Assembly: GCF_005869855.1 (NCBI RefSeq) | Contig: NZ_SZNH01000020.1 | Span: 9,294-59,068, forward strand | Length of the DNA stretch: 49,775 nt | Direction: 5' to 3' | Source: Nostoc sp. PA-18-2419 | GTDB lineage: Bacteria > Cyanobacteriota > Cyanobacteriia > Cyanobacteriales > Nostocaceae | Shown: positions 7,226-18,118 of the stretch, one piece after another | Layout: each line of letters begins with the position of its first letter | Position numbering within the stretch: position 1 is the stretch's first letter | Translations under genes and position numbers: made by a program | The notes under the pieces: model-generated | What the model saw: the letters and a program-made list of their open reading frames with translations, nothing else | Told to the model about the DNA's origin: nothing | Databases searched by the model: none

Positions 7226-10200
7226 CTAGCGAGATACAGCGATCGCTCCTCCCACTGCTGAGAAAACGCCGGAGACTACTGCTGTGGCAAATATCCACCA
7301 AGCTGCTGTAGCTGCGGCTTTGCGGGTTTCTTCTGCTTGTCGCTGTGCTTGATGTTTCACTTCTTCGAGGCGGCGTTGGGCTTCTTGCTGTAGGCGTTCT
7401 GCACGTTGTAATACTGTGTTGCGTGCCCGTTCAATTTGATCGACGATCCGGTTGGCATCCTCCTCGGAAATGTCTTCACGAGAACTCATAATTGCCACTA
7501 GTGTATCACGGTCAAAAGAAGACAGGCGATCGCGCAAAGCATCAAACCCGGATTGGGGATCTTCAAAAAAGGTGCGGACATCGCGCTTGATACTATCATA
7601 ATTGAGTTCTGGGCGATCCAAGGAGTTAAGATAATTACGGATGCGGCCAAAAACCCCGTCAATTGCATCTTGAATGCCTCGTTGGATGCTCCGCACTTGT
7701 TCTACAAATTGATCTCTAACCGAGACAATGTTATCGGCAATCTGCGCTGCTTCTTCATCGCTCATGTCTTCGCGAATTTTTAGCAGGGCGATGATCGTAG
7801 AACGGTCAAACTGGCCGAGGCGATCGCTAAAACTTTCTACCCCCACTCGCGGATCGTGTAACAGTAGTTGTAAGTCGCGTTTGATACCTTCTGGGTTGAG
7901 TTCTTCTTTCCCAGTTTGCCGCAGATAATCTTCCAGATAAGCTTTGAATGTTTCCACTCTTTGCTGTGTTCTGGTAGCTAAACGACGAGGCGCACGTACA
8001 ATGCTGCGAATCGAGTTTTGTACAGAATCAATAACTTCATTGACTTGTTGCTCGCTCAAGTCTTGACGTTGACTGAGCAATTTCACCAGTGTATCTCGGT
8101 CTACCCGAGATAAGCGATCGCGTAGCGCTATGGCTCCATCTTGGGGATTTTCAAACAATCTATTCAAATCGCGTTGAATACCTTCTGGATTTAACTCTTG
8201 TTTACCAGTATTCCGGAGGTAATCGGCGATGGTGGTGGTCACCGAGTCGTATTGCTCTTTAGCTTTGGTTGCTAAGGCTTGGGGTGCATGGCGGATACTA
8301 TGCCACGATTCTTCAACAGCATTGATAGTTTGATTAACTTGATCTTCAGTTAAATCTTCTCGCTGACTCAACAACTGTACCAGAGTATCGCGGTCAAAGC
8401 GAGACAATCGCGCCCCAATCGCAGCAATTCCAGCTTCGGGATCGTCTAATAACTTTTTGAGATCGGCGCGGATGGCATCAGGATTCAATTCTGATTTGCC
8501 AGTGTTACGCAGATATGATTCAACATTCAACCACAGGGTTTCTGCTTGATATTGTGCTTGTTCTGCCAGACCTTTGGATTCAATTAAAGCGCGATCGCGT
8601 TGTCTTTCTAAGTCTTCGAGAATGCTGTCTACTTCATATAACTGTATGTCACTACGTTCGAGCAATATCTCCCGCATTTGCTCGCGTTGAATATGAGCCA
8701 GTCGTCGTGACAGGGTTTCGTAATCTGCCTCTGGATCTTGCAACAGTGATTTGAAATCCCGCTCAATGCCTTCGGCTGACAATTCTGCTTTCGGAGTAAC
8801 CAGCAAATAACTATGAAGTCGGCGTTGCAAATCTTGGACGATTTCTCTTTCTTGTTCGGCTGTGACTGTAACTAGCACTTCTTGGCGCACAGTTTCTAGT
8901 CGGTCTGCAATGCGGTGAATTTGAGTTTGGGTAAGTAGTCCCCGCTGTTGCAAAATTTTGATGAAATCGTTGCGGGATAGTCGCTCTAGTTCCCTGCGGA
9001 TTGTTCCAGAATCGGCTGCTGGATCGTAAATGACATCGCGAAATTCCTGAGCAATTCTTTCTGGACTCAGTTGCCAAGCATAAGTATTGAACAAGTAGTT
9101 TTCCACATCAGCCCGAATTGGACTGTAGGGTTGGGATGGTGTGGGCAAACCTAGCTTATCTGCTTGTTCGGTAACCTTGTCTTTAGCAGTAGTCAGGCTA
9201 CCCAAGATTTTCTCTACATCAAAATCAGATAAATCAGTCCTTCCCAACACTATGGCTGTTAAAGCAGAGAGTCCTTGTTGCAGTGTATTTGGAATTGGCC
9301 CAGATGCGGCTTTTTGCTGAGATTGCTTGTCACTACGCATTTCTGTGACTAACCGATCCAGCTTAGCATTGAGTTCATCCGTCTTGGTTTGTCCGGGTGG
9401 GAGTGATTTGAGATATTGGATTAATTCACCCAAACTGTCTTGACTGGGTACTTGTTTACTTACTACCTGTTGCCATACTTTATATAAAGTATCAGCGATG
9501 CGGCTAACATCTTTTTTAGAAAGGTCGGTACGACTGCTGACTAACTCAATAAACTTTTGGCGATCAATATTGCCCAAATCCGAACTAGCGGCGATCGCTT
9601 TTACTTGCGGATCGTTGAGTAAATTTTCAAAATCACCACGAATCTTCGATAAATCGAGTTCTGGGGGACGCAGCTTTTCTAAGTAATCTTCAATGTTTTC
9701 TCGGATACTTACTGGGTCAATGCCGCTTCCTAGTTCTCGACGTACAGCAGCAGCGGCAGCTTCAGCGGTCGCTACAACTTGGTTATTAATAGCTTTTGCC
9801 CCCAGTGCGGCGGTAGCTGTCCCCATAATCGCTTGGAACCCAGAAGTTGCCGTATTTACGACCGAGCCAATCAAGGAACCCACAGTGGTGGAACTGACCC
9901 AAAATAGCAGTGAAAAGTATGCAGCCCAAATCACTAAACCAAGAATTGCCCCTTTTCCTGGATCTGAAAACAACAGGCTTAATTTCACTGCCAGGAAACA
10001 AGCAATTAAGAGGGCTATGGTTACAGTAACTAACGTCCAAATCCCTACTGCTGTGCCAACTTTGCGAATAGTGCCGCCCAAACTTCCAACTTCATCACCA
10101 CTTGAATCTGAGTCGGATGCACGCCCGAGGTAGGAAATACCGGCTGCAACTGAGAGATTAGTTAGAACTAATTGAAAAGCAAAGGCTAAAATCACACCAG

Positions 10201-10321: not shown

Positions 10322-10664
10322 TGTATTTCCTTGTCTTAGTGTTTTAATTTTGGGCGGATTAAGAATTTCCTGACAAGTAACTCTTAGTAATTATCTACTG
10401 TACTATAACAATACCTAACTCTTTAGATCAGAATCATGGAATTTAGGTGGTTCAAGCATCTCTCCAAAGATTGAAAAGTATATCCAGCGAAAGATATAAA
10501 TTTTATTATCTCTTGGTAGAAATTTTAATTACCTTGGTAGTTGCTATTAAGATATAGATGATTATTTTGGCAAATTTGGGTTGCCATTATCGCAATTATT
10601 TTGATGGAATTATATAGTTGTCTTCAATAAAAAAGCGAAATATTGATGCTGTGAATAGTTGATA

Positions 10665-11731: not shown

Positions 11732-12367
11732 TTATTCATCAATACAGCTAGGAATACCCAAAACGGGGCAAGGAAAATCAGAACCTAGTGCCTCAATTAT
11801 GGGATGATTGACAGAATTACAACCAACAAATAGTATGTCGGCAGCTTCTATTTCCACAACTTTTTTAAGTTCTGTGGAAATGCAACCAAACCGCAAATGA
11901 GATTTAAACGAACCTTGCCATTCTTCCGCCAGACTTCGTGCTTGCCAAAGAATTCTATCTGCTTCTTGCAAGGGAGTGATAGCTGTCTGCAATTTGGGTT
12001 GAGTTAATACGAGTGTGGCAGATTTTGATATTTCACTAATCTGACATTCTAATGAAGGCTGTTGTATAGGAAAATTCAAGATGTTTGGATAGTGGCTACT
12101 TTGATTGTCTTCTAATACATAAACAGCTTGAACTGTAACTTCTGTATTCGTGGCTAAACGCGTTTGATGGGCAATCCAAAAGGCAACGTCCAATGCTGTA
12201 TGACTGTTAGGAGAAGCATCATAGGCAACAATTAAGTTAACTGAATTTGTTGCTGGAGATTCTTTAGAAAACAGTTTTTTAGGTTCTGGTAGTAATACCA
12301 TTTGTTCAATTAAATCATCTCGACCTACGGCACTTTGCAGACGTGCTAACATTGGCTTAATTTTCAC
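11732..12367 (-). CDS. Universal stress protein (UspA)-like, under a ydaO-type riboswitch
   Basis: 211 residues. After a ~40-residue leader, VNLIVAYDASPNSHTALDVAFWIA matches the first strand-loop-helix of the Usp fold, and ADILFVGCNSVNHPIIEALGSDFPCPVLGIP matches the C-terminal part. The Usp ATP loop (G-x2-G-x9-G-S/T) is degenerate here: VGCNSVNHPIIEALGSD keeps only part of it, so ATP binding is uncertain. Usp proteins act in stress, starvation and ion or osmotic adaptation. The striking point is the leader: a c-di-AMP riboswitch (12555-12735, minus strand) lies between the neighbouring ABC ATPase gene and this start, so the gene should have its own c-di-AMP-responsive transcript. Confidence 0.8.
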   Translation of the reverse strand: MKIKPMLARLQSAVGRDDLIEQMVLLPEPKKLFSKESPATNSVNLIVAYDASPNSHTALDVAFWIAHQTRLATNTEVTVQAVYVLEDNQSSHYPNILNFPIQQPSLECQISEISKSATLVLTQPKLQTAITPLQEADRILWQARSLAEEWQGSFKSHLRFGCISTELKKVVEIEAADILFVGCNSVNHPIIEALGSDFPCPVLGIPSCIDE

Positions 12368-12430
12368 AGCTTTACTTCTCCAAATGAAATGAATTAGTAA
12401 TGAGAAGCAGGGCGACTAATTTGGAATCTT

Positions 12431-12458: not shown

Positions 12459-12554
12459 GCAAATCACCAAGGACTAATGACTAAAGAACTAATGACTAAA
12501 ATTTAAAATCAGTAGAGGAAACCCCAATAACAACTGTATTACAGCCAAAGTTTT

Positions 12555-12735
12555 GGGGGTTCCTTCCATTGCCTACGGAGTTAGCTGACGGGCTAAGACT
12601 GGAAGGTGTCTCTCTCTTCAAAGTACTGAGTACTGAGTGCTGAGTTAATGTTAATAATTATTAACTCTTTGCTTTCTATGAGATTAGCCCCACAAGATGG
12701 TTCCTCCGCTTCAAATCCAGCTTTCATAAATTTGA
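12555..12735 (-). ncRNA. ydaO/yuaA-type c-di-AMP riboswitch upstream of the stress-protein gene
   Basis: Read on the minus strand: GCGGAGGAACC, then TTGTGGGGC, a variable AT-rich arm, then AGCCCGTCAGCTAACTCCGT and AGGC. These are the hallmark conserved blocks of the ydaO class. The closing helix CCTTCCA / TGGAAGG covaries with the other copy at 16250 (TCTCTCA / TGAGAGG), which supports the fold. Downstream, GGAACCCCCAA (12553-12563) can pair with TTGGGGTTTCC (12517-12527) as an expression-platform hairpin. Known ydaO riboswitches bind c-di-AMP and usually switch transcription off. The variable arm contains a heptamer array. Confidence 0.85.
12623..12643. repeat. Heptamer array inside the riboswitch variable arm
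   Basis: GTACTGA, GTACTGA, GTGCTGA in 7-bp register, within the non-conserved arm of the ydaO-type aptamer. A degenerate heptamer tract occupies the same place in the second riboswitch (16320-16347). Confidence 0.65.
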
Positions 12736-12769
12736 ATTAGGCTACCCACTAAAAAAATCATAATCTAGT

Positions 12770-13624
12770 TTACTCGTGTTGCGTAAAATATTGATCGAGA
12801 AAATTCAAGGCGTGATTGCGGAGTTCAAAATATTCTTTTGAGTTTCGCATGGCGGCGCGATCGCGTGGATGCTCAAAAGGAACTTCTAAAATCTCGCCGA
12901 TAGTAGCAGCAGGGCTGTTGGTCATTAATACGATGCGATCAGACATATAAATTGCTTCGTCTACATCGTGGGTAACCATCATCACTGCTTGGCGATGATT
13001 TTCCCAAATATCTAATACTTGCCGCTGCAATTTTCCACGAGTGAGGGCATCTAACGCTCCAAAAGGTTCATCCATAAGTAACATTTTAGGACGAATTGCT
13101 AATGCTCTAGCAATACCTACCCGTTGTTTCATACCTCCAGAAAGTTCATCAGGATACTTATCAGCCGCCGCCGTTAAGTTTACCATTGACAAGTGTTGAT
13201 TTACAATGCTAATTTTTTCAGAACGATTAGCATTTTTTAACACTTCATCCACAGCTAAACGGATATTTTCTCGCACTGTTAACCAAGGTAACAATGCATA
13301 ATTTTGAAACACCATCATCCGCTCTGCTCCAGGCTTGCGAATTTCTTTTCCATCTAAGCGTACTGAGCCAGAAGTTGCTTTTTCTAAACCAGCGATAATC
13401 TTCAAAAGGGTTGATTTTCCACAACCAGAGTGACCAATTATAGAAATATATTCATCTTCACCAATCGTCAGATTAACTTTATCTAACACCACAAAATTAT
13501 CTTTATCAGGTGTCGGATAATACTTGACTAAATTTTCAACTTCTAAAAATCCAGAACGGGGCATAACTTCGTTTTGAGTATCAATAGGTAATGAGGTATA
13601 TTCCATCATCAAATGCTCCGGCAA
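12770..13624 (-). CDS. ABC transporter ATP-binding protein, NrtD/SsuB/TauB class
   Basis: 284 residues. Walker A GHSGCGKST, Q-loop VFQNYALLPW, signature LSGGMKQRVGIARAL, Walker B LLMDEPFGALD and the switch His in VTHDVDEA are all present, so the ATPase should be active. It is single-domain, not the NrtC type fused to a binding domain. It is the third gene of a minus-strand unit permease, binding protein, ATPase, with only 29 nt between the binding-protein stop and this start. An alternative start at MMEYTS, 5 codons in, is possible. It energises import through the permease at 15302. The substrate class is nitrate, bicarbonate, cyanate, taurine or a relative; not fixed. Confidence 0.92.
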   Translation of the reverse strand: MPEHLMMEYTSLPIDTQNEVMPRSGFLEVENLVKYYPTPDKDNFVVLDKVNLTIGEDEYISIIGHSGCGKSTLLKIIAGLEKATSGSVRLDGKEIRKPGAERMMVFQNYALLPWLTVRENIRLAVDEVLKNANRSEKISIVNQHLSMVNLTAAADKYPDELSGGMKQRVGIARALAIRPKMLLMDEPFGALDALTRGKLQRQVLDIWENHRQAVMMVTHDVDEAIYMSDRIVLMTNSPAATIGEILEVPFEHPRDRAAMRNSKEYFELRNHALNFLDQYFTQHE

Positions 13625-13653: not shown

Positions 13654-15096
13654 TTAAGACATGAAAAAACGAGTGGGAGCATTAGCCCTAATAGCAAAAC
13701 TATTCAGATAGCCCACTGGATCGCTGGGATCAAAGCCTTTCTTATCTATAAATACTTCTGGTGGTTCTACTTTGTAATCATCCTTAGGACATTTAATGCC
13801 CATTTCATTTGCTATCTCTCGATATAAATCCGTTCTCCAACCTTTTTCGGCTAGTTTGTTGGCATCTTTAGGAAATGCTTTAATTTGTCCCCACCGTGCT
13901 GCTTGAGTCATCAACCAAAGACTTCTAGATCTCCATAAAAATGTCGAGTGTTCTCCTGGTTGTTTGGGAAGGTTGTCTGGAATATCAAAGAAAATTGTGG
14001 TGTCAGCAGCTTGAATGGTGCGGTCTTTGCCATCAAACCCACCATAGTTATAGTTACCGAGAATGCCCGGACTGGTAAATTTCGCAATTGGGGCATCTTT
14101 GTTTTTGGGTTTTGCACCTGTAAATGAACGGTCTGTCAGCAGTTCAGCAACTTCTTGGCGATTTTGGGCTTTACTGCAATATTGGCAAGCTTCAATCATT
14201 GCTTTGACGAGGGAACGATAAGTTTTAGGATATTTCTCGATGAAAGATTCCATTACTCCCAAAAGTCGGTCTGGGTGTCCCAGCCAAACTTCTTTGCCTT
14301 GGGCGAAGGTAAAGCCGATGTTTTCGTTACCTGTAATTGCTCTTGTGTTCCAAGGTTCTGCAACCATGTAAGCTTGCATAGCGCCAATTCGCACGTTTGT
14401 CACCATCTGGGGCGGCGGAACGATGATGATGCGAAACTCATTGAGCGGATCGACGCCAGCAGCGGCAGATAGGTAACGGACAAAGTATTCGTAAATGGCG
14501 GAACTCAGCACCACTGCCCAAACTTTGCCTTCTGGTGGCTGTCGGTCGAAGTAGCCTCGAAAATCTTTGCCAAAGGCTTCTAATGCACCATCGCCATATT
14601 TTTCTTGGTACTCGTACCACGGACGCAGCCCAGAATCCCACATGGCTTTGTTCATAGTCATGGCGTTACCGTGACGGTGAATGGTCATGGCTGCACACAA
14701 GGGGGCGTGGCGTGCGCCTTCGGCACCAATTCTGGCGTTGGTAACAGCGCCGGATACTACAGGTGAAGCATCCAAGCGACCAAAAATTACGCCGTCACGG
14801 GAGGTAGCCCAACTGGCTTCCCGGTTGAGGGTGACGTTCAAACCATATTTGCGGAAGAAGCCTTTTTTCCAGGCGATCGCAAATGGTGCACAATCATTTA
14901 CAGGAACGTATCCAACGGTAAGATTGGGTTTTTCTAAATCGCTGGATTTAACTACTGGTTGCACAGCTAAGGCTTCTTGTGTTAGTCCTTTGGCGGATCT
15001 ATCTCCTGAAATTGCACAGGAGGATAAAGCTATTCCGGCTGTGGTTGCCCCTATTCCTTTAATAAAGTTTCGTCGGGTATAGTTACAATCGCCCAT
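13654..15096 (-). CDS. NrtA/CmpA-family substrate-binding lipoprotein
   Basis: 480 residues. The N-terminus has a twin-arginine motif (RRNFIKG) and a lipobox (ALSSC), so it is probably exported folded by Tat and lipid-anchored on the outside of the inner membrane. The rest is the NrtA/CmpA-type two-lobed binding fold: NLTVGYVPVNDCAPFAIAWK, then FRKYGLNVTLNREASWATSR, and AYMVAEPWNTRAI. NrtA binds nitrate and CmpA bicarbonate; the sequence shown does not settle which, and other anions are possible. It is the second gene of the riboswitch-led operon, 205 nt after the permease gene. An ATTTGGG-type heptamer array (15121-15155) lies just upstream. Confidence 0.88.
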   Translation of the reverse strand: MGDCNYTRRNFIKGIGATTAGIALSSCAISGDRSAKGLTQEALAVQPVVKSSDLEKPNLTVGYVPVNDCAPFAIAWKKGFFRKYGLNVTLNREASWATSRDGVIFGRLDASPVVSGAVTNARIGAEGARHAPLCAAMTIHRHGNAMTMNKAMWDSGLRPWYEYQEKYGDGALEAFGKDFRGYFDRQPPEGKVWAVVLSSAIYEYFVRYLSAAAGVDPLNEFRIIIVPPPQMVTNVRIGAMQAYMVAEPWNTRAITGNENIGFTFAQGKEVWLGHPDRLLGVMESFIEKYPKTYRSLVKAMIEACQYCSKAQNRQEVAELLTDRSFTGAKPKNKDAPIAKFTSPGILGNYNYGGFDGKDRTIQAADTTIFFDIPDNLPKQPGEHSTFLWRSRSLWLMTQAARWGQIKAFPKDANKLAEKGWRTDLYREIANEMGIKCPKDDYKVEPPEVFIDKKGFDPSDPVGYLNSFAIRANAPTRFFMS

Positions 15097-15301: not shown

Positions 15302-16156
15302 TTAATTAGCTAGATTTGTGGGGCGACGAGTTACTAATTCTTGGATTTTGCCGAGGGCGTAATCAAGAATTAATCCGGTTAAGCCAATTACAAATACGGC
15401 TAGGAAGACTGAACTAAGGTTTAAGCGACTCCATTCATCCCAGACGAAAAAGCCGATGCCAATACCGCCTGTGAGCATTTCTACGGCAACAATTACTAGC
15501 CAAGCGATGCCTAAACTAATTCGCAAACCTGTAAAAATATAGGGTAAACTTGCAGGCCAAATTATTTTTATAATCTGCCGCCAACGTGGCATTTCTAACA
15601 CTTGTGCCACATTCAAATAATCTTTGGGAACGCTAGAAACTCCTAAGGCGGTATTAATAATTGTCGGCCATAAGGAAGTAATAAAGATAACAAAAATAGC
15701 TGAAGGGTCGGCTAAATTGAAAATAGCTAGGGCAATGGGCAACCAAGCTAGAGGAGATACAGGTTTAAAAATTTGAATGATCGGATTAAGCGCTAGCATT
15801 GCCTGTCTGGACATACCAATGAGAAACCCTAGAGGTATGGCTACTACTGCACCAAGCAAAAAGCCGAGTATTACTCTTCGCAGACTTGCTATTAATAACC
15901 AACCAATTCCTAAGTTGCCGGGGCCTCGCTCATAGAAGGGATTTAAGATGTAGTCTAGATTAGCTGATAGTGCTTCTGGTGGGGTGGGCATTAATTCGTG
16001 GTTGGCAAGTGCAACAATCCACCACAGCAAAATTATTCCTAAAAAACCCAATACAGGTAAAAAGAAAACATCTTTAGAGATGACAGGTTTTGCTTTTTTC
16101 CAAGCAGCTTGTCCAGCGATCGCCGCGATCGCTGCTATATTTAGTTGAAAAATCAT
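15302..16156 (-). CDS. ABC transporter permease, NrtB class
   Basis: 284 residues with about six membrane helices. The conserved permease loop that docks the ATPase is visible as ALGVSSVPKDYLNVAQVLEM followed by PRWRQIIKIIWPASLP (the EAA-type motif). GLRISLGIAWLVIVAVEML and GIGFFVWDEWSRLN are typical of nitrate/bicarbonate/taurine-type permeases. First gene of the operon; its 5' leader carries the ydaO-type riboswitch at 16250-16445. It forms the channel for the ligand delivered by the lipoprotein at 13654, powered by the ATPase at 12770. The N-terminus is Ala/Ile-rich with two HIP1 sites in the DNA, so the first ~20 residues are probably dispensable. Confidence 0.92.
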   Translation of the reverse strand: MIFQLNIAAIAAIAGQAAWKKAKPVISKDVFFLPVLGFLGIILLWWIVALANHELMPTPPEALSANLDYILNPFYERGPGNLGIGWLLIASLRRVILGFLLGAVVAIPLGFLIGMSRQAMLALNPIIQIFKPVSPLAWLPIALAIFNLADPSAIFVIFITSLWPTIINTALGVSSVPKDYLNVAQVLEMPRWRQIIKIIWPASLPYIFTGLRISLGIAWLVIVAVEMLTGGIGIGFFVWDEWSRLNLSSVFLAVFVIGLTGLILDYALGKIQELVTRRPTNLAN

Positions 16157-16235
16157 TCACGACCTCAACAGATTTAAGTGCAGGTACAAAAAACCGAGCA
16201 GTACCAGCCTTGGACACTGATGAGATCGGAACGTT

Positions 16236-16445
16236 AAAAAATACCGTCTCTTCAGTCTCCTCTCAATGCCTACGAAGTTAGCTGACGGGCTAGGGCTGAG
16301 AGATGCCCTTCTGAAGAATGTTCTGAGTTATCAGTCAGGAGTTAATAAACTTTATTTAACTCATCACTCTTAACTGCTAACTTTCTCCAAGATACGCCCC
16401 ACAATTTGGTTCCTCCGCTCCAGCTTTATGCACTTTAATGCGCTG
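16236..16445 (-). ncRNA. ydaO/yuaA-type c-di-AMP riboswitch upstream of the ABC operon
   Basis: Minus strand, 5' to 3': GCTGGAGCGGAGGAACC, TTGTGGGGCGTATCT, a variable arm that can fold on itself (AGTTAA ... TTAACT), then CTAGCCCGTCAGCTAACTTC and GTAGGC. Helix TCTCTCA / TGAGAGG is extended by CTTCAG / CTGAAG, and a T6 run follows at 16241-16236, so this copy has a terminator-like expression platform. The conserved blocks match those of the copy at 12555, while helix bases differ by compensating changes. A second small hairpin (GGTAC ... GTACC) lies between it and the permease start. Confidence 0.87.
16320..16347. repeat. Degenerate heptamer tract in the second riboswitch arm
   Basis: GTTCTGA, GTTATCA, GTCAGGA, GTTAATA: a decayed 7-bp array at the same structural position as the array in the first riboswitch. 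Confidence 0.5.
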
Positions 16446-16927
16446 GATTAAGCTGACTTACTCTAATAAATACGAAATTACGCACAATATAAGTTCGATA
16501 TAAAGACTATAACATTGATGCTCTGTAAAAGTCATCTATTTTAGAATTAGTATTTTTTCATACTTTTCTCTCAGCAATTTACATGGTTTTTGCGTAATTA
16601 ATAAATTTGATATGTTTTGTCAATCTAGTTATTTGATGAGTAAACTCATTGCACACTCAAGGAAACAAAAATAGTTGAGTCAAGCATCAAGATTGTTTTT
16701 TGCTAGATAATCTTTATGAAGATAACATATATTATACTTTAAAATTTTTATATACGGGGAGTGAATCGAGCAATACCTACGGCTGGCTACGCCAACACCA
16801 CAATAGATAAAATTTATTACTTTTGGTAGGTTAATCTTATAAAAAATTGTGGTAGTTACTGGCTCCACTCGCTAAACTAATTGCATATAGAAATTTACTC
16901 ATCTGTCTGGTAGCTGAATTTAAGATA
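16446..16927. other. AT-rich divergent spacer
   Basis: Separates the minus-strand ABC operon from the plus-strand histidine kinase. No gene is supported; a small open frame on the minus strand (16680-16868) lacks any ribosome-binding site. A small GCTACGCC-type repeat lies near 16785. Confidence 0.5.
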
Positions 16928-18118
16928 ATGGATTTTAGTCAATTCCTGGCTGAAAAAACTGATATCATCCTAGATAAATGGGTGACAGCAGTTCGTAAAG
17001 ATCAGCAGATTAAAAGTGCTGATGATTTATCCTATATAGCAATTAAAAATCATATTCCTAATGTTTTGAAAGCAATGGTAACTGTGCTTTCAAAATCTGA
17101 AGATAATGATATTCAGTCGGTAGTTATTGCCAGTTTTGAGCATGGAACAATTCGAGCCGAACAAGGTTTTGAACCAACAGAAATTGCTAGAGAATATCAT
17201 CTTTTAAGAACAGTAATATTTGACACTATTCAGCGAGATTTACTAAAAGTAACACCGTCAGAGATAATTCGTTCTATGCGTTTGATTGACGCTATTGTAG
17301 ATGAAGCGAGCGCTCGGTGTTTCAAAAGTTATGTTCAAGAACGCTTGCGAGAATTGAGGCAGTTACAGATGTCATTAACGCTGCACAATCACGAACTCAC
17401 GCGCTTAATTAGTACCAATCAAGAGTATATTTCCCAACTAGCCCACGAATTAAAACATCCGTTAACTTCAATTATTGGTTACTCGGATTTATTTTTACGC
17501 CAACAACGGAAAAAGTCCCGGATAAAAGACAACTATACCAATTTAGAACATATTGAGCGGGTGCTACGAAATGGTAGACAATTACTTCAGTTAATCAATG
17601 ATGTATTGGAACTTTCGCGGTATGACGCAGGACAGATAAAACTCCAACTAGCACCTACTAATGTGTCTGAACTAATTAATAATGTCTGTCAAATGTTGGA
17701 ACCTTTAGCTATTGAGAAAAATTTACAACTTCTAGTAGATTACCAACACGCTCCTGAAGAATTGTTTACAGATTCTTTTCAATTGCAACAGATTGTCACA
17801 AATCTTATTAGTAATGCGATTCGCTATACAGAGTCGGGAACTATTATTGTAATGTGTCAAGTATTGGAGAAACAAAGATGGGCGATCGCAGTTTCTGATA
17901 CTGGAGTTGGTATTGCACTAGAAAATCAAGCCAAGGTATTTGAACCTTATTTTCGTGTTAGTGCTAGCGATCGTCCTTACCTTCCTAATAGTACGGGATT
18001 AGGATTAGCAATAGTTTCGCGCTTGGTGAAACTACTGCAAGGTGAAATTAACTTAGTTTCTGAAGTGGGAGTTGGTTCCACTTTCACTGTAGTTTTGCCA
18101 TTAGAAGTGAAAATGTGA
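16928..18118 (+). CDS. Sensor histidine kinase with RsbRD-type N-terminal domain
   Basis: 396 residues, no membrane helix, so cytoplasmic. Residues ~5-135 look like an RsbRD-type helical sensor domain (FLAEKTDIILDKWVTAVRKD, EHGTIRAEQGFEPTEIAREY). A coiled linker leads to the HisKA domain with phospho-acceptor H173 (QLAHELKHPLTSIIG). The HATPase domain has the N box (N296, VTNLISNAIRY), G1 (DTGVG, 324-328) and G2 (GLGLA, 357-361). All catalytic motifs are intact. No response regulator is adjacent, so it is an orphan kinase. RsbRD domains occur in stress-signalling proteins; the stimulus here is unknown. Confidence 0.9.
   Translation: MDFSQFLAEKTDIILDKWVTAVRKDQQIKSADDLSYIAIKNHIPNVLKAMVTVLSKSEDNDIQSVVIASFEHGTIRAEQGFEPTEIAREYHLLRTVIFDTIQRDLLKVTPSEIIRSMRLIDAIVDEASARCFKSYVQERLRELRQLQMSLTLHNHELTRLISTNQEYISQLAHELKHPLTSIIGYSDLFLRQQRKKSRIKDNYTNLEHIERVLRNGRQLLQLINDVLELSRYDAGQIKLQLAPTNVSELINNVCQMLEPLAIEKNLQLLVDYQHAPEELFTDSFQLQQIVTNLISNAIRYTESGTIIVMCQVLEKQRWAIAVSDTGVGIALENQAKVFEPYFRVSASDRPYLPNSTGLGLAIVSRLVKLLQGEINLVSEVGVGSTFTVVLPLEVKM

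Follow-up and report, generated by a model that had tools for sequence, protein, structure and literature searches.

We found two c-di-AMP riboswitch aptamers in a single operon region of a Nostoc genome: RS1, which precedes a three-gene ABC importer operon, and RS2, which lies further downstream, in front of a gene for a Usp-domain protein. From the evidence set out below, we consider it likely that RS1 acts as a translational OFF switch, that RS2 controls Usp separately, and that a single c-di-AMP regulon, most likely an osmotic one, unites Usp and the importer with a probable sucrose-phosphate synthase encoded elsewhere in the genome. The riboswitch class is known; what is unusual is to see two switches in one operon. 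What appears noteworthy is the intercistronic RS2 with its tie to Usp, the presence of two distinct, recurring expression platforms, and an importer ligand that is probably misnamed by annotation. Known c-di-AMP effectors of cyanobacteria are few, and with two riboswitches for one ligand in one operon the locus lends itself to testing in a compact form.

Two c-di-AMP aptamers in one operon region

Scanning the window, i.e., the whole stretch of 49,775 nucleotides analyzed, with cmscan against Rfam 15 yielded three matches, two to RF00379 and one to PsrR1, a photosynthesis regulatory sRNA (RF02701; 46292-46209, minus strand; 60.3 bits). RS1 scored 65.7 bits (E 4.1e-13; the RF00379 gathering score is 38 bits) and spanned the full model, positions 1-134, so that, at the level of the covariance model, it is an ordinary c-di-AMP riboswitch aptamer. 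This agrees with a preliminary description of the locus, which had named a c-di-AMP-type riboswitch and had proposed the comparison with the Rfam ydaO-yuaA covariance model that gave a significant match on the whole window; the hallmark blocks that it quoted, AGCCCGTCAGCTAAC and GTAGGC, were both found. The element that it placed at 16236-16445 is real, and its borders had to be shifted, as that interval stopped 19 nt short on the 5' side and ran 16 nt beyond the 3' end of the aptamer. The missing 19 nt include the AGUC of the outer P1 (16458-16455), which is found in all 63 RS1 leaders; its presumed partner GACU (16257-16254) is common to the outer P1 and to hairpin H1 of the expression platform. 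Absent from that earlier account was RS2, a match of 57.7 bits (E 7.2e-11) that likewise covers the full model. A whole-genome search with RF00379 returned three sites: RS1, RS2 and one on another contig.

Table 1. Coordinates of the two aptamers, their candidate platform elements and the associated genes in the window.
Feature	Position	Strand	Basis
RS1, c-di-AMP (ydaO/yuaA) aptamer 5' of the ABC operon	16252..16464	-	RF00379; in 63/66 ortholog loci
Outer P1 of RS1, 5' strand AGUC	16455..16458	-	predicted pairing with GACU 16257-16254
RS1 loop CUCUCA, putative pseudoknot partner of UGAGAG 16265-16260	16297..16302	-	sequence complementarity
RS1 platform hairpin H1/H2	16212..16260	-	covariation test
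Anti-Shine-Dalgarno AUCUCAUCAG	16217..16226	-	complementary to CUGUUGAGGU 16171-16162
Hairpin H4 GGUAC/GUACC, second U run in loop	16183..16205	-	covariation test
CUGUUGAGGU with permease Shine-Dalgarno GAGG 16166-16163	16162..16171	-	sequence and alignment
ABC permease, NtrB type	15302..16156	-	TIGR01183, 239.8 bits (cut-off 209.05)
NMT1_2-family substrate-binding protein with lipobox and Tat-like RR	13654..15096	-	PF13379, 211.5 bits
ABC ATPase, NtrCD type, without C-terminal regulatory domain	12770..13624	-	TIGR01184, 363.4 bits (cut-off 291.8)
RS2, second c-di-AMP aptamer, between ATPase and Usp genes	12555..12753	-	RF00379; 37/66 loci
RS2 platform hairpin GGAACCCCCAA ... UUGGGGUUUCC	12517..12563	-	recurs with variants in 37 RS2 leaders, by eye
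Hairpin CUUCUC/GAGAAG over Usp Shine-Dalgarno	12375..12407	-	recurs in RS2 loci, by eye
Usp-domain protein, 211 aa, GTG start	11732..12367	-	PF00582, E 3.5e-7, 31.3 bits (cut-off 24)

The arrangement of permease, binding protein and ATPase genes downstream of RS1, also part of the preliminary description, was borne out (Table 1). The ATPase is a single, unfused protein of 284 aa, and the orthologs of the binding protein carry the RR in 66/66 cases and the lipobox pattern in 64/66; the closest binding proteins among named genomes come nearly all from Nostoc, with up to 98% identity. A comparison of the 4.7 kb operon region with plasmids gave no match, and for the Usp protein no solved structure matched at E 1. 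The genome encodes a diadenylate cyclase domain (PF02457, 129.6 bits). A divergent gene beside the operon (16928-18118, plus strand) encodes a histidine kinase whose N-terminal domain is of the RsbRD type.

RS1 proved to be a near-constant companion of this operon. Searching 145 genomes of the same GTDB family with the binding protein (E 1e-60) gave 97 full orthologs from 97 genomes (64-100% identity), a set that excludes a 130-residue match (G155) and the weaker matches, of ~35-40%, to NrtC-type frames. Of the 145 genomes, 131 carry RF00379; among the matches listed, it lies 1.0-1.3 kb 5' of the binding-protein gene for 81 of the 97 orthologs; scanning the other 16 loci at the gathering score revealed RS1 in 13, which brings its presence to 94/97. 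The three orthologs that lack it are at L175, L176 and L196. In one genus, L175 and L176 are without RS1 and L206 has a weak copy (42.9 bits); L177 and L214, from the genus of L175 and L176, retain full-scoring copies (67.7 and 70 bits). Twelve nrtA/cmpA-type loci from six related genomes, taken as a control with 1.5 kb flanks, gave no Rfam match at the gathering score. Comparisons of gene order used 66 loci, namely the window, 60 Rfam-scanned loci and five from a stricter RF00379 search. At one locus, L163, a group I intron (RF00028; 668-913, minus strand) was seen near the ABC operon.

Across the order, RF00379 occurs in 89 of 148 genomes. From the matches listed, with those of the window's genome excluded, 146 sites were taken; 7 outside the fetched loci were dropped, which left 139, and the first open reading frame of at least 80 aa within 900 nt was counted as the next gene. 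Among these listed matches, the permease of this operon comes next at 55/139 sites, which span 53 genomes, 35 genera and 19 families; a permease group presumed to be slr0753-like comes next at 31, and Usp, thus a recurrent target with a riboswitch of its own, at 21, from 21 genomes, 13 genera and 7 families. A glycosyltransferase and a group of 183-aa proteins followed with 6 each, other genes were fewer, and 3 sites had none. In the 183-aa group, the gene lies 485-770 nt from RF00379 (G017, G067, G085, G102, G119, G134). We take the permease group to be slr0753-like from its resemblance and from a partial, weak CitMHS match of a fragment. Among the sites sampled from the order, RF00379 thus stands before the importer operon more often than before any other target, and the operon is hence no odd target for the ydaO class. 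With other members of the RF00379 class, RS1 and RS2 share the full-length covariance match, the conserved core and, in the case of RS1, a transporter target in a cyanobacterial host; they differ in that two elements with two platforms stand in one operon region, and in that the platform of RS1 is proposed to be translational. The Synechocystis slr0753 riboswitch is likewise a cyanobacterial RF00379 target, and slr0753 is described in PMC10117731 as a putative chloride exporter, unlike the importer here.

RS2 and the Usp gene

RS2 starts 17 nt past the stop codon of the ATPase gene, with the Usp-domain gene downstream, and its presence follows that of Usp. In 45 of the 66 loci, a Usp gene lies downstream in the same orientation. 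All 37 loci with RS2 have Usp, and in the stretch examined RS2 occurs in 0/21 Usp-less loci (Fisher 5e-11, with loci counted as independent despite kinship). In the eight loci that have Usp and no RS2 match, Usp begins 103-145 bp past the ATPase gene in six, after a gap of 396 bp in L213 and after 1891 bp in L048.

The platform of RS2 is unlike that of RS1, and ACCC is common to its hairpin and to the outer P1 of RS2. This P1 analog, GGGU/ACCC, has GGGU in 37/37 leaders, and the six letters 3' of GGAAGG read AACCCC in 23 leaders, AACUCC in 6, AACCUC in 6, AACCGC in 1 and GGCCCC in 1. The pseudoknot partners CUUCCA/UGGAAG of RS2 occupy the same places as CUCUCA/UGAGAG of RS1, with both partners changing together. 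The hairpin over the Usp Shine-Dalgarno sequence stands, as judged by eye, at a variable distance from the platform hairpin. We propose that RS2, located 17 nt past the ATPase stop codon and equipped with its own platform, would control Usp separately.

That RS2 serves a separate Usp transcript made from its own promoter, and no part of the operon transcript, is a serious alternative that we rate at somewhat under an even chance. A -10-like pattern in the 50 nt ahead of RS2 in 28/37 loci (a raw count without background) speaks for it, as do the order-wide Usp sites among the matches listed, where the stretch fetched contains ABC genes at 11 sites and none at the other 10. It is countered by the close spacing, RS2 lying 17-52 nt past the ATPase stop codon in 31/37 loci, and by a sigma-70 scan that found no site upstream of RS2. 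Tentatively, one mRNA could instead be gated twice in series, with RS1 shutting the importer and RS2 setting another threshold, or the opposite sign, for Usp; if true, one c-di-AMP signal would order the outputs of a single operon. Within family f18, six Usp genes (L105, L117, L119, L122, L125, L128) follow an RS1-type platform, as seen by eye, and the stretch fetched around each shows no ABC gene.

Importer ligand and probable osmotic setting

The nearest solved chains of the binding protein are the C-terminal regulatory domains of NrtC/CmpC (E about 1e-65), with NrtA (4e-46) and CmpA (6.5e-45) farther away. We anchored the pocket numbering through 2g29 and compared the residues named in two papers, His196 and Lys269 of the NrtA pocket (PMC8786288) and Glu271 of CmpA (PMC13249358). 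At the His196 position, all 66 orthologs have Tyr (in six with the pattern shifted by one residue); the CmpA Glu271/NrtA Lys269 position is Arg in 66/66, and the Gln155 position is a constant Asn in 66/66. The acidic Ca2+ ligand of CmpA, Glu271, is thereby absent from the binding protein. As the places of His196, Glu271 and Gln155 are all changed, the pocket residues argue against a Ca2+-bicarbonate site and against a bicarbonate-like pocket, and the same changes leave nitrate unproven. Of the nitrate/bicarbonate-type importer named in the preliminary description, the assignment to the NrtA/CmpA superfamily stands, and the bicarbonate idea is weakened by the invariant Arg and by the nearest solved relatives being regulatory domains of NrtC and CmpC.

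Compared with NrtABCD/CmpABCD, the permease scores above the NCBIfam cut-off for ntrB, the ATPase above that for ntrCD, and the binding protein is of the same superfamily; the gene order here is, in contrast, permease, binding protein, ATPase, with a single ATPase, changed pocket residues and a binding protein nearest to the NrtC/CmpC regulatory domain. PII is reported to act on the regulatory domain of NrtC (PMC13249358), and the operon's single ATPase has no regulatory domain of the NrtC type. Nitrate or bicarbonate uptake, by which the riboswitch would couple nitrogen or carbon uptake to c-di-AMP, is in our judgment doubtful. It would account for the NtrB and NtrCD scores and for the conserved Trp, Asn and Arg of the pocket; furthermore, the branch nearest to the binding protein includes the CmpC regulatory domain that reportedly senses nitrate (PMC13249358), and a PF13379 search of the window's genome gave 11 matches with one above 73 bits, no NMT1_2 match besides the binding protein itself exceeding that score. 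Against it stand the Tyr and Asn at the His196 and Gln155 positions, the separate NrtA-like and CmpA-like proteins present besides it in six of eight genomes searched, and the other identified targets (Usp, the probable sucrose-phosphate synthase and the permease group), none of them a known gene for nitrogen or carbon uptake. A small anion or an osmolyte is probably the substrate of the importer, and we see here a reason to consider it for such ligands over the nitrate/bicarbonate label.

The third RF00379 site of the genome precedes a glycosyltransferase gene whose product has as its best solved relative Tll1590 (PDB 6kih), which we take to be a sucrose-phosphate synthase; no listed NCBIfam model scored above its cut-off, and the target is, by this resemblance, a probable sucrose-phosphate synthase. 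Since the third switch stands before such a gene, osmotic adjustment is the likeliest setting, and c-di-AMP control at this locus probably serves it. The importer, Usp and the distant probable sucrose-phosphate synthase would then make up one c-di-AMP regulon. At two loci, L164 and L173, a relative of the probable sucrose-phosphate synthase gene (86% and 85% identity over the part compared) lies divergently beside the ABC operon itself, preceded by a divergent RF00379 (L164, 529-711, minus strand; L173, 6399-6566, plus strand).

Among the titles and abstract openings listed in literature searches, none described this operon. The target lists of Nelson et al. 2013 or Block et al. 2010 may include the ABC operon already, and the importer may already fall under a published statement on osmoprotectant transport. 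In PMC5986932 and PMC4284465, which cite Nelson 2013, cyanobacterial c-di-AMP riboswitches are held to point to osmoprotectant synthesis and transport, and PMC3766115 describes a wide variety of transporters as targets of c-di-AMP riboswitches, perhaps all of them osmoregulatory.

Proposed expression platform of RS1

The 3' side of the RS1 aptamer overlaps a hairpin that would compete with a candidate anti-Shine-Dalgarno sequence. In this hairpin, H1 pairs GGAGACUGA (16260-16252) with UCAGUGUCC (16220-16212), and H2 pairs GAGA (16250-16247) with UCUC (16225-16222). H2 covaries clearly, with 242/248 cells paired and 15 double-change cells, a result reached by 0/500 shuffles. For H1, the excess over shuffles is small: 481/567 cells are paired (84.8%, against a shuffle mean of 84.4%; 1/500 shuffles reach this), with 2 double-change cells (13/500 shuffles reach). 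Within the family, hairpin H4 had 302/315 cells paired and zero double changes (169/500 shuffles reach), and the helix between AUCUCAUCAG and CUGUUGAGGU did not covary above shuffles (300/500 reach); both are near-invariant and lack covariation at this level. Across the order, duplexes between the 3' strand of H1/H2 and the Shine-Dalgarno region had an observed mean of -8.51, compared to -7.50 (sd 0.43) for between-family swaps, with 13/1000 permutations as low as observed. This test covered 38/56 leaders from 15 families; the other 18 were dropped for want of a start, match or motif that the script could recognize, and in a few of the rows retained (e.g., G081 and G011) the motif is probably misplaced. 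An RNAalifold consensus on a MAFFT alignment of 61 leaders (without L187 and L206) was uninformative.

Upon blocking GGAGACUG in folds of the platform, the median accessibility of the Shine-Dalgarno sequence dropped from 0.25 to 0.06, with a decrease of more than 0.2 in 13/63 leaders and an increase in 1. In the unconstrained fold, the Shine-Dalgarno sequence was 25% unpaired at the median and above 0.5 in only 1/63 leaders; as it is mostly paired even then, the openness of the ON state is left unsupported by these folds. The aptamer lies 95-110 nt from the permease gene in 57/63 leaders (range, 78-132), and the sequence of this spacer is strongly conserved.

These data suggest the following model. 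When the aptamer holds c-di-AMP, its outer P1 (AGUC/GACU) and its pseudoknot would retain the 5' strand of H1, such that AUCUCAUCAG is free to pair with CUGUUGAGGU and mask the Shine-Dalgarno sequence. Without ligand, H1/H2 would fold and sequester AUCUCAUCAG, leaving the start region accessible. High c-di-AMP would thus, most likely, reduce translation of the ABC operon. The predicted competition between a covarying hairpin and the anti-Shine-Dalgarno helix fits translational control by RS1, and the platform evidence supports an OFF switch, whose direction we infer from the model and from the class, c-di-AMP riboswitches being known mainly as OFF switches.

Such a translational platform fits RS1 better than termination. 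The leader has two T6 runs, and the preliminary description had read a nearby T6 as a mark of transcription termination, which we find poorly supported. The first run (16241-16236) sits in the apical loop of H2 and is kept as T6 in only 9/63 leaders (T5 in 26/63), and for both reasons is a poor terminator signal. The second (16193-16188) sits in the loop of H4 and is T5 or longer in 37/62 leaders (36/63 by a looser pattern), because of which we retain termination as a rival. In this rival, the bound aptamer would permit pairing of CAGUGUCC with GGUACUG ahead of the U run at 16193-16188. The recurrence of that run, a terminator-like hairpin and U run at 16219-16199, and the mechanism shown for the c-di-AMP riboswitch of B. 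thuringiensis kdp (PMC6488665) make this worth weighing. It is nonetheless unlikely: terminator-like sites number 4 against 4.5 expected from shuffles, the stem and the U run are five bases apart, T5 is absent from 25/62 leaders, and the alternative helix is without covariation (500/500 shuffles reach). An intrinsic terminator conserved at the T6 runs was likewise weighed and, from the shuffles, the scan and the U-run counts, ranked no higher than a rival. According to PMC6488665, the kdpFABC riboswitch has the same aptamer class before a multi-gene importer operon and a canonical terminator, whereas here the U run is found in part of the leaders and the importer is of the NMT1_2 type.

The reverse sense, an ON switch in which the bound aptamer releases CUGAAGA for an open hairpin, is very improbable, as the UCUUCAG of the window's variable arm is able to pair with CUGAAGA but is, by eye, unconserved across the 63 leaders, which also led us to reject this pairing as the switch, and as the class acts mainly by OFF switching, of which PMC6488665 describes one case. 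As for RS1 itself, its aptamer is doubled in two genomes of one genus, where two RF00379 aptamers stand ~400 nt apart before the same permease (in riboswitch orientation, 9201-9347 and 9754-9888 in L083, and 10325-10471 and 10874-11009 in L084).
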